A DNA stretch of 36,069 bases from Bacteroidota bacterium (GTDB lineage Bacteria > Bacteroidota > Ignavibacteria > Kryptoniales > JAKASW01). The translations under genes were made by a program, and so were the position numbers. The notes below the pieces were generated by a model. That model was not told where the DNA came from and ran no database searches. It was given only the letters and a program-made list of their open reading frames with translations. The stretch spans positions 2,064 through 38,132 of the forward strand of contig JAJYIT010000041.1 in the NCBI GenBank assembly GCA_021789975.1, given 5' to 3'. This document shows, in pieces, positions 6,174 through 18,700 of this stretch. Every line of letters starts with the position of its first letter. The first letter of the stretch is position 1.

Positions 6174-7733
6174 TTGGAAAGTGTGTCATTGTTTGAAAAT
6201 AGATCCGTGAATGCACCCTCTCAGCTTCCGCAAGTGAAGCTGGTCAAGGCCTTTTCGAATCCCTTCAAAAACGTGGTTGCGACAGCAAGAACCTGTTATT
6301 CCTCGAAAGGGATAATCGAAGATGAATCGATAGATCTGGACAAGTATGGGAATCTCGCACGCGACATATTTGCTTCGGGACATCACACGACTTTCCAGCA
6401 TGCTACGTTCCAGTTCCAGATCTCCAACGTTTCGCGGCAATTCATCTGGTCGTTTCTGCACTCGCATCCGTTCTACAATTCCGAACAGGTGAGTCAGAGA
6501 TATGTCGAAGTGAAGGAAGACAACTTTTTTGTCCCGCCGTTGCAGGGCGACGCGCTGCAGATCTATTTAGATGCTGCTCGCGAACAGGTGACCGCCTACC
6601 GCGATCTGGTGCAGCTGCTGATGAAGCCTGCCGGAGATGAATACTATAAGATATTTCCGAGGCGAAAGAGCGATAGTCGTTTCAAGGGTGAAATCAAAAA
6701 GAAAGCACAGGAAATCGCAAGGTACGTTCTGCCGATAGCTACCTTCTCATACCTGTACCACACGGTTAGTGGGATAACTCTTCTGCGTTACGCAAAGATG
6801 TGCAGGTCAGGCGACGCTCCGTACGAGCAGAAACTAGTCGTGGATATGATGGTACGGGAGCTTCTCAGGTTCGATCCTAATTACAGCATAGTGCTGGACG
6901 AGCCGCTGGGGGAAGAGAATTTTGTGGAAGCGATACCTGATATCTCCCGCAATCCGGCGAAATTCGCGGCAGAGTTCGATGTCGAGCTTGGTGGTCACAC
7001 ATCGAAGCTGGTTGATTACAAAGCGAAAGCGGACAGAACAATTTCGGACGCCGTGAGAGAGATGCTTGGTAAGACAGCTCACGAAATGACCGACGATGAG
7101 GCATTGTCGCTGGCTATCGATCCATCGCGCAACCGGCTTCTCGCTAACTCACTGGTCCTTACGACCCACGATAAGATTTCCCGGGCGCTGTACCATGCTT
7201 CCTACACGTTCAAAAAGAAGCTTAGTCACACCGCAGACTCGCAGGACCAGAGACACCGGATGACTCCGGCCTCCAGACCGGTTTTGAAGCTGCAGATGAC
7301 GACCGAGCCGGATTACATCATTCCGAAGCTTGCAACACTGGATCAAGGTGCCGAGCGGCTCTACCGGCAAACCATGGACAAAACCTGGGAAGCAATTGGA
7401 AATCTTCTGTCGAAAGGCGCCAGCCGCGAATTTGTCTCGTATCTTCTCCCCAACGCCTTCCCAATCCGGTTTACCGAATCTGCAGACCTTCTAAACCTGC
7501 ATCACAAGATTGAAATGAGATTGTGCTACAATGCCCAGGAAGAAATCTGGAGGGCCTCGCTCGATGAAGTCAATCAGATTAAAGAAGTCCATCCGCTGTT
7601 GGGAAAGTACCTGCTGCCGCCATGCACAATCAGGATACTCGCGGGGATTAATCCGTATTGCTCAGAGGGGAAAAGATATTGCGGAGTCCCTGTGTGGAAA
7701 CTGGATACTTCCGATTACCAAAGAACAATTTGA
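6174..7733 (+). CDS. thyX: FAD-dependent thymidylate synthase, fused double-domain ThyX
   Basis: ThyX makes dTMP from dUMP using methylene-tetrahydrofolate, FAD and NADPH. Ordinary ThyX has 210-260 residues; this one has 519 and contains two ThyX-like halves (about 20-260 and 290-510). The first half carries the late part of the signature (FYNSEQVSQRYVE, about 100-112) but not RHR. The second carries RHR at 360-362 (QRHRMTPASRP) but lacks the NExSxRY part. The two halves may therefore build composite active sites. The start is TTG with a weak AGG upstream at 6165-6167; GTG at 6180 is a close alternative. The gene stands alone, flanked by repeat-bearing spacers. Confidence 0.92.
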   Translation: MESVSLFENRSVNAPSQLPQVKLVKAFSNPFKNVVATARTCYSSKGIIEDESIDLDKYGNLARDIFASGHHTTFQHATFQFQISNVSRQFIWSFLHSHPFYNSEQVSQRYVEVKEDNFFVPPLQGDALQIYLDAAREQVTAYRDLVQLLMKPAGDEYYKIFPRRKSDSRFKGEIKKKAQEIARYVLPIATFSYLYHTVSGITLLRYAKMCRSGDAPYEQKLVVDMMVRELLRFDPNYSIVLDEPLGEENFVEAIPDISRNPAKFAAEFDVELGGHTSKLVDYKAKADRTISDAVREMLGKTAHEMTDDEALSLAIDPSRNRLLANSLVLTTHDKISRALYHASYTFKKKLSHTADSQDQRHRMTPASRPVLKLQMTTEPDYIIPKLATLDQGAERLYRQTMDKTWEAIGNLLSKGASREFVSYLLPNAFPIRFTESADLLNLHHKIEMRLCYNAQEEIWRASLDEVNQIKEVHPLLGKYLLPPCTIRILAGINPYCSEGKRYCGVPVWKLDTSDYQRTI

Positions 7734-10026: not shown

Positions 10027-10653
10027 TTATTCGACAGTCAGGAATCTGTCCTTGCCAGTCATGCAGATTCCACAGCGCGCCGGAGCTTCTCCAGCGTATG
10101 TGTTGCCGCACGTCGGACAAACCTGGTACACTGACGCAAGTGATCCGATGTCGTTGGCTTCAAGTGCCTTCAATGCTCCCTCGTAAAGTGCCTTATGCTT
10201 GAGCTCGGTCTTGTTTGCGTAATTAAAAGAAATCGAGGCGATGGTAATCCCCGCCTTACCGGCGTCCTTTAAGAAACTCGGGTACATTATGCTTGACTCA
10301 TAGGTCTCGCCTTTTATCGCATCTTTCAAATTATCGCTCGTGGAGTTTACTTCGAACTTAGGATCGACGGCCGGTGCGGTTTCGCCAATCTGTTCGAGTG
10401 CCGCTTTATGGTTCCCCGCATGGATGTTTTCTGCCTTCGATGCTGCCTCAAACAGCAGGGCGATATTGTCCAAGCCCTCTTGCTTTGCCTTTTCTGCATA
10501 GGCGGCATACTTTGCACTGGCAGTGGTTTCGCCGGTAAACGCAGCCTTAAGATCCTCTACCACCTTCTTGGCAGCTTCCTTATCGGCGGCAGCGCAGAGC
10601 GTAAATGCGCTGAAAAGGATCAATACTGCCGATGAAATGATTATTCGCTTCAT
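10027..10653 (-). CDS. Rubrerythrin with signal peptide (exported)
   Basis: Rubrerythrins are diiron peroxidases that reduce H2O2 using electrons passed through a rubredoxin-like site. This 208-residue protein begins with a basic end, a hydrophobic stretch and an AAA site near 21-23, so it looks exported to the periplasm. The ferritin-like domain has candidate iron ligands E42 (GETTASAKY), E75/H78 (AENIH), E116/E119 (GETYE) and E150/H153 (ELKH). The C-terminal rubredoxin-like site has C179-x2-C182 and C194-x2-C197. AAAGGGAG lies upstream of the ATG. Rubrerythrins are normally cytoplasmic, so the signal peptide is the odd feature. It lies 155 bases downstream of the DUF2231 gene on the same strand. 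Confidence 0.93.
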   Translation of the reverse strand: MKRIIISSAVLILFSAFTLCAAADKEAAKKVVEDLKAAFTGETTASAKYAAYAEKAKQEGLDNIALLFEAASKAENIHAGNHKAALEQIGETAPAVDPKFEVNSTSDNLKDAIKGETYESSIMYPSFLKDAGKAGITIASISFNYANKTELKHKALYEGALKALEANDIGSLASVYQVCPTCGNTYAGEAPARCGICMTGKDRFLTVE

Positions 10654-10807
10654 CTTACTCCCTTTCTAGTTGATTAGTGATTTGACCTAAGACTCGGTCA
10701 CGTTCGCTTTAATATCGGCAGGTGCTTCGGAAATGGATCGTCTTGTTCTCGGCGTACGGTCCAGGCGATGTTCCGTTCCGGAGATCGAAGACGGATTAAA
10801 TGCAATA

Positions 10808-11308
10808 TTACGGATTTGATGCCGAAGCCAGAGAACCGTTTTGAATAGATCCTGAATTTGATGAACCGAATTCAATAGTTACTCCTGCTGCGTGTTTGAA
10901 AACCAATTCTCCACCATAATAGCCGGTCCTGGACACAGCAAGTACGCCCGCAAAGAATATTGCGAAGGCAATCCATCTGTAGTAGCCGGCATACCGGCGT
11001 ACCATGACCAGAGCAGTTCTGAATACCGCGGCTCCGATGATTATCCAGAGTGCCAGCTCAGCTGCACTTTCGTGAACTTCTACTGCATCCTTCAGACTTC
11101 CTGCCTCAACCAGACCATCGGCCGCCGACGCCCCCGAGAAATATGCAGCAATCGCTCCGATGGCTCCGACTATTAGAAGAATGAAACCGGTTTTTTCCAG
11201 GAAGTCGCGCTTCACAAACAACGATATCGCGTCGACGAGGAAGCCGATAATCAGGAGAGCGATGGGGAAATGCACTATCATAGGATGGAGATGAGTCAGA
11301 TCCGGCAT
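10808..11308 (-). CDS. DUF2231 family membrane protein
   Basis: This is a 166-residue integral membrane protein with about four hydrophobic segments. It opens with the family hallmark 'LHPMIVHFPIALL', whose histidines may bind a cofactor or metal (inference). The reading frame is open to an ATG at 11350, but the ATG at 11308 has AAAGGA upstream at proper spacing and gives the conserved start MPDLTHLHP, so I prefer it. Function is not established for the family; members often sit near redox or cytochrome-like proteins. Its position upstream of an exported rubrerythrin on the same strand fits an envelope redox role (inference). Confidence 0.85.
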   Translation of the reverse strand: MPDLTHLHPMIVHFPIALLIIGFLVDAISLFVKRDFLEKTGFILLIVGAIGAIAAYFSGASAADGLVEAGSLKDAVEVHESAAELALWIIIGAAVFRTALVMVRRYAGYYRWIAFAIFFAGVLAVSRTGYYGGELVFKHAAGVTIEFGSSNSGSIQNGSLASASNP

Positions 11309-17809: not shown

Positions 17810-18700
17810 ATGATGGACATTCTCAAACGTGTCGCCGGCTTCGTTTCCATTTTTATAGTTGGGGTGCTTGTTTCTCAGTCAGCGTTCGGATGGGGATTCT
17901 GGGCACACCACGTTATCAACAAAGAGGCGGTGACCGTTCTTCCCGAACCAGTACGCGACTTCTATTCCGCAAACGTGGATTATCTCGTCGAGCATTCGAC
18001 GGATCCGGACACGCGAAGGGCTTTTGTAAAGAACGAAGCTTATTCTCATTACATGGACCTGGACCGTTACGGGGATTATCCCGATTTTCATGTGCCTGCT
18101 ACCTACGAGGATGCGGTTGAGAAGTACGGTGAGGAAACTGTCTTGAAAGACGGTATTGTGCCATGGAGAGTGGGTTGGGATGTTGATAGCCTGACCGCCG
18201 CTATGAAGGAACACGATGTGCCTTTGATCCTTCATCTTTCGGCCGACCTCGGACATTATGTGGCAGATATGCATGTTCCTCTTCACGCGACAAAGAACTA
18301 TGATGGCCAGCTCAGCGGTAACATCGGTGTTCACTTTAGATGGGAAACTGGTATACCACAGCATTTTGGAAGTGACTACAACTTCAGTAATTTTGGAAGT
18401 GTCCATTACATCAAGAATCCGGTGAAACACGCGCTCGGCATATTGGAGCATAGTTATTCGCTCTTGCCTGAAGTATTCAAGGCCGACTCACTTGCAAAGG
18501 TTGGTATTCCCAAGGACGACCTTTACCGGGTGGAAGAGAAAGAGGGTAGGAGAGAATATATTTATTCCGACCAATACTATACGAAATTCAACAAAGAACT
18601 AAACGGCATGGTGGAATCGCAAATGCGAGAGGCGGTGAGTGCGGTGGCATCTTACTGGTACACCGCCTGGGTAAATGCCGGCAAACCAAAATTCTGGTGA
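17810..18700 (+). CDS. Exported zinc-dependent phospholipase C / S1-P1 nuclease-like protein
   Basis: This 296-residue protein belongs to the trinuclear-zinc fold shared by P1/S1 nuclease and bacterial phospholipase C. A signal peptide (about 1-27) would expose W28 (WGFWAHHVI); in the fold the mature N-terminal Trp is itself a zinc ligand. Other candidate ligands are H33/H34, the Asp of 'YMDLDRYGDYP', the His/Asp set in 'HLSADLGHYVADMHVPLH' and 'GVHFRWE'. All three metal sites therefore look intact. Substrate (nucleic acid or phospholipid) cannot be decided. Two consecutive ATG codons start it, with GCGGGAG upstream. It lies nine bases before trpB. Confidence 0.85.
   Translation: MMDILKRVAGFVSIFIVGVLVSQSAFGWGFWAHHVINKEAVTVLPEPVRDFYSANVDYLVEHSTDPDTRRAFVKNEAYSHYMDLDRYGDYPDFHVPATYEDAVEKYGEETVLKDGIVPWRVGWDVDSLTAAMKEHDVPLILHLSADLGHYVADMHVPLHATKNYDGQLSGNIGVHFRWETGIPQHFGSDYNFSNFGSVHYIKNPVKHALGILEHSYSLLPEVFKADSLAKVGIPKDDLYRVEEKEGRREYIYSDQYYTKFNKELNGMVESQMREAVSAVASYWYTAWVNAGKPKFW

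Follow-up and report, generated by a model that had tools for sequence, protein, structure and literature searches.

The window, that is, the whole 36,069-nucleotide stretch of DNA that was analysed, encodes a rubrerythrin with an apparent export signal. Export would put this classic peroxide enzyme into the periplasm, and the question arises of where its reducing electrons come from when NAD(P)H is not close by. Passages of a study of two clostridial rubrerythrins (PMC12288474) describe a supply of electrons via an NADH-dependent rubredoxin oxidoreductase and rubredoxin, a chain that would be out of reach for an exported protein. An earlier note on this DNA had proposed that the rubrerythrin is exported with all of its diiron and rubredoxin ligands kept, and that the adjacent DUF2231 membrane protein, with its conserved histidines, is a candidate for the electron donor. 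The two genes lie on the same strand with a gap of 154 bases (Table 1), and the next gene upstream of the DUF2231 gene on this strand encodes an EamA-type transporter. A scan for promoters and terminators gave no excess over shuffled sequences, and between the two genes it found no minus-strand terminator-like site. Two further genes of the window were recorded in passing: the 519-residue protein encoded at 6174–7733 (+) matches Thy1 (ThyX) in two stretches and thus reads as a doubled ThyX-like protein, and the product of 17810–18700 (+), which has a signal-like start, matches zinc-dependent phospholipase C weakly, below the cut-off, and may be an S1/P1-type nuclease.

Table 1. Features of the rubrerythrin and DUF2231 genes, with positions in the window
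Feature	Position	Strand	Description	Basis
Exported rubrerythrin gene	10027..10653	(-)	208 aa, ATG start	ORF
Signal peptide	10585..10653	(-)	residues 1-23, probable cleavage after A23	inspection; hydrophobic N-termini of relatives
Diiron four-helix domain	10177..10551	(-)	residues 35-159; ligands E42, E75, H78, E116, E119, E150, H153	Pfam
Rubredoxin-like domain	10042..10122	(-)	residues 178-204; C179, C182, C194, C197	RUBY_RBDX, below cut-off
Shine-Dalgarno-like AAAGGGAG	10658..10665	(-)	5-12 nt before rubrerythrin ATG	sequence
DUF2231 membrane protein	10808..11308	(-)	166 aa, ATG at 11308; upstream of rubrerythrin gene	Pfam PF09990
H6, H8, H13 of DUF2231	11270..11293	(-)	predicted periplasmic end of helix 1; H8 and H13 33/33, H6 29/33	
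H79 of DUF2231	11072..11074	(-)	predicted periplasmic end of helix 3; 33/33	
H139 of DUF2231	10892..10894	(-)	predicted periplasmic C-terminal part; 23/33	

The product of the 10027–10653 gene matches the Pfam family Rubrerythrin (PF02915) with an E value of 5.9e-21 and 75.7 bits, above the cut-off of 22.8, and RUBY_RBDX with 1.9e-5 and 24.4 bits, under the cut-off of 26.5. Its best match among solved structures is nigerythrin (1yuz; 8.4e-26), aligned over residues 22–205. The NCBIfam nigerythrin model NF045783 gives 115.5 bits, whereas 340 are needed for assignment as an equivalog, and the scores against the NCBIfam nigerythrin and rubrerythrin models are far under both cut-offs. In an alignment of 35 rubrerythrins of the linked set, all of the Glu and His positions listed for the diiron domain in Table 1 are invariant (35/35), as are C179, C182 and C194 (35/35); we take these positions to be metal ligands from what is known of other rubrerythrins. 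Position 197 is Cys in 16 sequences and Ser in 19. The claim that all rubredoxin ligands are kept thus holds for the window protein, in which all four rubredoxin cysteines are present, but not for its family.

By inspection, the N-terminus of this protein, MKRIIISSAVLILFSAFTLCAAAD, resembles a Sec-type signal, and a short basic start followed by a hydrophobic core is common to eight sequences, those of seven genus members and of G058, in spite of differing letters. A lipoprotein reading was considered and rejected: by the usual lipobox rule, the FTLC motif ending in C20 is not a lipobox, and the N-terminus is therefore read as a cleaved signal peptide. In a scan of named genomes, 65 loci were sorted by a simple rule of our own and by eye into 55 exported and ten non-exported, the former having a signal or lipoprotein-type N-terminus and the latter comprising nine without a signal and one cut at its start. 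One exception to the rule was L123, which it called exported from a far-upstream start and which was counted as non-exported, since its close Akkermansia relatives are not exported. A lipobox pattern of our own is matched by 16 of the 55 exported relatives, and several Saprospiraceae rubrerythrins outside the pattern have a Cys at a similar position.

The co-occurrence of the two genes was assessed in three sets of genomes. In the first, consisting of the window's genome and 60 relatives, 48 rubrerythrin matches were placed against 58 DUF2231 matches, with distances taken between first bases and five short second pieces of genes omitted from the count. A DUF2231 gene lies within 3 kb of every exported-type rubrerythrin (8/8) and within 6 kb of none of the other rubrerythrin matches (0/40); 21 of these 40 were read and have no clear signal peptide by eye, and one of the 40 is a remnant in G007. 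Within the genus of the window (13 genomes, its own included), the full exported gene is present in seven and DUF2231 adjoins it in all seven. The remnant in G007 (L018/L072), which also belongs to this genus, is a 67-residue C-terminal piece of rubrerythrin, and no DUF2231 match was found in this genome; this is the pattern that joint loss of both genes would give, although the assembly is rated 90% complete.

The second set is a sample of 395 genomes of the phylum, of which seven contain an exported-type rubrerythrin with E < 1e-80. The same seven are those with a linked-type DUF2231 at E <= 1e-50, the next match being at 5e-35; both limits are our own choice and were set at gaps in the lists. 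Each pair lies on one contig and strand with the genes at most 3 kb apart. The chance agreement of two sets of seven among 395 is 3.5e-15 under the assumption that the genomes are independent, which they are not. In the third set, the named genomes, DUF2231 is present in 42 of the 55 exported loci versus none of the ten others, and strand is shared in every case. Pairwise distances within the two protein families are correlated (Spearman 0.80, 496 pairs), but shared ancestry confounds this value, which is given no weight here. Chance neighbourhood of the two genes is ruled out by the counts in these three sets, and absence of co-occurrence, which the earlier note had named as grounds for abandoning the idea, was looked for and not found. 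Together with gene order and strand, the counts strongly support both the export of the rubrerythrin to the cell envelope and its link to the adjacent DUF2231 protein, and the pair may be regarded as a conserved envelope module.

DUF2231 lies directly upstream in 20 of the 42 linked loci and upstream at 2.1–3.5 kb in 17; in the remaining five a divergent homologue occurs downstream only. The direct order is that of the window's genus, of most Bacteroidales-type loci and of L089 and L091. In the spaced order, which is found in many Ignavibacteria, Pontiellaceae and Saprospiraceae, DUF2231 is followed by a response regulator (RR), a histidine kinase (HK) and then the rubrerythrin; members of the RR/HK cluster stand between the pair in all 17 spaced loci, in L088 with one further frame, and no such pair stands between the two genes in the window. 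Outside the genus of the window, an OmpR-type regulator and a membrane histidine kinase just precede the rubrerythrin gene in 20 of 36 linked loci. Only four protein clusters occur in at least four loci, namely rubrerythrin, DUF2231, RR/HK and one that is present in four loci. The divergent DUF2231-like protein downstream of rubrerythrin, with an HLHLLLNH-type motif, was seen at L101:6748-7248 and L106:6959-7450, and also in L105, L109, L110, L113 and L118; that of L101, the one scanned, is below the Pfam cut-off.

Thirteen exported loci of the named-genome scan have no DUF2231, five of them within the linked clade and eight outside it. The five (L081, L084, L086, L092 and L100) lie at contig ends with little upstream sequence, 0.1–1.2 kb (3.7 kb in L084), and three of their five genomes have a linked-type DUF2231 elsewhere (E < 1e-63), the other two having none. 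The eight are real exceptions, from Spirochaetota (three), Armatimonadota (two), Bacteroidales, Verrucomicrobiota and Myxococcota (one each); seven of their eight genomes have no DUF2231 at E <= 0.001, and one has a weak partial match (8.6e-5). In the phylum sample, three rubrerythrins of greater distance, all having lipoprotein-type starts, are likewise unaccompanied. That of G353 (E 3.7e-57) has no DUF2231 within 16 kb and one elsewhere in the genome (7e-16). Those of G166 and G297 (loci L195 and L196; E near 1e-32) have no DUF2231 within 5 kb and none listed for the genome; both are degenerate, with letters near some of the expected diiron ligands altered and the rubredoxin-like CxxC pairs kept. 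Since such exceptions exist, DUF2231 is to be seen as the partner of one large group and not as a general need of exported rubrerythrins.

A tree was calculated from 69 rubrerythrins, with L112, L116, L118 and L121 skipped (motif missed) and L135 and L137 incomplete. The linked rubrerythrins (39 rows) fall in a 47-row group together with three Spirochaetota and the five contig-end loci, and this group is separated from the Akkermansia sequences and the remaining non-exported forms with only moderate support (91/77); the 34-row part that contains the window is supported by 100/98. Ser occupies the fourth rubredoxin position in 25 of the 69 rows, and two changes suffice on the tree, which fits one replacement of Cys by Ser and one reversion within the genus of the window, if the direction is as we infer. 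Of the 55 exported loci, 28 have Cys here and 26 have Ser, the residue of the last being unread. The residue differs between layouts, the direct one counting 18 Cys and two Ser and the spaced one a single Cys and 15 Ser, a split that also follows clades. The serine may alter or remove the site of electron entry, and this natural replacement of a rubredoxin cysteine poses a second, separately testable question.

The DUF2231 protein of the window is a member of PF09990 (3.1e-17, 63.4 bits, cut-off 26.4). Its structure model consists of four long helices, with a mean pLDDT of 84.9 and a pTM of 0.74. Across the aligned sequences, Lys and Arg average 2.1 per sequence in loop 1 and 3.1 in loop 3, versus none in the N-terminus, 1.1 in loop 2 (with 4.2 Asp and Glu) and 0.8 in the C-terminal part. 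This clustering of basic residues in loops 1 and 3 predicts a periplasmic position for the N-terminus, loop 2 and the C-terminus, and it is in these regions or in the adjoining helix ends that the conserved histidines sit. The protein should therefore span the membrane with four helices and present its conserved histidines to the periplasm; the histidines to which the earlier note had pointed are indeed conserved, three of them without exception in the 33 sequences compared (Table 1). A Foldseek search with the model gave no significant match (best E 0.29) and does not show a cytochrome, and the profile matched nothing among solved structures up to an E value of 1. CcmC, CcmF, STEAP, the formate dehydrogenase cytochrome and cytochrome b561 were among many unrelated helical bundles matched by Foldseek, with Z values in the fold comparison within the usual range for helical bundles, and because the matches scatter in this way no fold family is claimed.

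From these observations we infer the following topology, cofactor, electron path, substrate and regulation for the pair. The mature rubrerythrin would act in the periplasm as a peroxidase, reducing hydrogen peroxide to water at its diiron site. The DUF2231 protein would reside in the inner membrane, where its periplasmic histidine cluster probably holds a redox cofactor, either heme b or a metal; it would draw electrons from the quinone pool and deliver them to the rubredoxin-type iron, from where they would reach the diiron site of the rubrerythrin. Where they are encoded just upstream, the OmpR-type regulator and the membrane kinase would control the rubrerythrin gene. We give this reading, in which a membrane redox protein supplies electrons to a peroxidase in the periplasm, about an even chance of being correct. 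The lipoprotein-type rubrerythrin of G353 (L180:7789-9694) is divergent from genes for a Fur-family protein and a peroxiredoxin, company that fits a peroxide role.

The role of DUF2231 as electron donor is supported indirectly, by its conserved and predicted periplasmic histidines and by the redox neighbours that its relatives have elsewhere. In three loci (L047, L049 and L056) DUF2231 adjoins, in the same order, a protein that contains a cytochrome c domain, assigned by Pfam in L049 and by likeness in the other two; this protein is exported, its C-terminal part resembles Phenol_MetA_deg (L049 scanned), and these loci also hold an RR-like gene and, truncated where the sequence stops, an HK-like frame. 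DUF2231 adjoins CcmF-type genes in two loci, one of which was scanned. In L181 and its near-copy L182, an extended DUF2231 stands between a multicopper oxidase (by Pfam) and a P-type ATPase (by eye), the latter being His-rich in L181 by eye. Forms of DUF2231 with a C-terminal extension of about 200 residues were seen at L181:2741-3814, L183:3582-4715 and L184:2404-3462, and the extension from L181, the one scanned, has no Pfam match. In the 28 unlinked DUF2231 loci, inspection by eye showed nothing plainly redox-related among the remaining neighbours. An electron-transfer role is favoured, and not proved, by the redox neighbours. A broader proposal, in which DUF2231 would be a new small quinol-to-periplasm carrier for interchangeable partners, namely the rubrerythrin here and the cytochrome c-domain protein in a sister family, so that a non-heme peroxidase in the envelope would draw on the respiratory chain, with a natural Cys3Ser iron site of rubredoxin type in many of these rubrerythrins, is put forward tentatively.

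The same neighbourhoods bear on a different role for DUF2231, in which it would handle metal or heme and help to load or protect the exported iron protein without donating electrons to it. The fused DUF2231 beside the multicopper oxidase and the His-rich P-type ATPase, the two DUF2231 beside CcmF-type genes and the fact that the conserved polar residues are mostly histidines all suit this role. However, the set that adjoins the cytochrome c-domain protein does not, and exported rubrerythrins that have no DUF2231 would need loading too; overall we regard the role as unlikely.

The two-component genes and the ancestry of rubrerythrin lead to a further reading, in which the rubrerythrin would be a periplasmic ferroxidase that oxidizes Fe(II) with hydrogen peroxide or dioxygen, and DUF2231 would drain electrons into the membrane; the electron flow would then be reversed and Fenton chemistry would be kept out of the envelope. 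Rubrerythrin is placed in the ferritin-like superfamily in a paper on its evolution (PMC5114695, abstract). Pfam classes the one regulator scanned as OmpR-type and assigns HAMP, HisKA and HATPase domains to the three kinases scanned. The best families for the regulators and kinases of three relatives are the heavy-metal models TIGR01386/TIGR01387, at scores under the curated cut-offs (kinases 204–237 versus 292.6 bits, regulators 235–241 versus 279.2), and such heavy-metal-type regulators, which weigh against the preferred reading, could point to a metal rather than to peroxide. In the sensor region of 19 kinases whose genes immediately precede that of the rubrerythrin, D44, E48, E51, E70, E73, E75, H76 and E80 are invariant, and, the start aside, no column has Met or Cys in half of the sequences; the invariant acidic and His residues could suit a sensor of iron or another hard metal. 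A simple ferroxidase, however, has no need of the rubredoxin-type domain, three cysteines of which are kept in all 35 sequences, and the Fur-family and peroxiredoxin genes that flank one exported relative also speak against this reading, which we consider improbable.

Still further down in probability is a rubrerythrin whose main task in the periplasm is to sense redox state for the kinase, with little turnover. The RR/HK-type genes between the pair in every spaced locus would suit such a sensor, as would the tracking of the fourth rubredoxin residue with gene order, though this follows clades too; but the 20 loci, those of the window's genus included, that keep the pair with no kinase between them make it very improbable. 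Least credible of all is a cytoplasmic rubrerythrin made from an internal start, a shorter start being the other finding that the earlier note had said would count against export: a TTG at codon 11 and a GTG at codon 31 do precede the first ligand in the window gene, but it is the ATG that the Shine-Dalgarno-like site precedes, the nearest relative (L073) has no GTG-31, and a signal or lipoprotein-type N-terminus is the rule among the named-genome loci.

If DUF2231 is indeed the donor, peroxide removal would be wired directly to the quinone pool with no heme peroxidase. The preferred reading also gives a common domain that has had no assigned function a first role open to testing; a profile of the linked-type DUF2231 matches 173 of the 395 genomes of the phylum sample at E <= 1e-10. 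Both families are known. Among the open-licence papers searched, none was found to describe them as a stable pair in the envelope, and none to mention an exported or periplasmic rubrerythrin or COG4244; DUF2231 is mentioned in one. The words periplasm, signal, export and membrane are absent from the main text of the rubrerythrin-evolution paper (PMC5114695).

Compared with known systems, the window rubrerythrin shares with the rubrerythrin and nigerythrin of Desulfovibrio (1yuz) the diiron four-helix domain and the rubredoxin-like domain, and its type differs from them in being exported, in being linked to a gene for a membrane protein and in having Ser at the fourth position in the majority of the aligned sequences. 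The DUF2231 protein of the window belongs to PF09990, within which the linked set forms a distinct high-scoring group. Periplasmic peroxide removal is carried out in bacteria by cytochrome c peroxidase and quinol peroxidase, heme enzymes fed by the respiratory chain, whereas the proposed system, in this comparison from general knowledge, would use a non-heme diiron site. In another envelope system, MsrPQ, the protein MsrQ is a membrane heme b protein linked to quinol. At E <= 0.001 the matches of the two window proteins are confined to PF02915/PF21349 and PF09990, with no match to the MsrP or MsrQ families. In passages of a paper on Escherichia coli (PMC9302797), MsrPQ is described as a periplasmic redox enzyme whose activity depends on a partner, induced via the two-component system HprSR. 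The pair described here finds in MsrPQ/HprSR its nearest working likeness, one of principle and not of descent: the protein families are unrelated, and MsrPQ serves methionine repair rather than the removal of peroxide.
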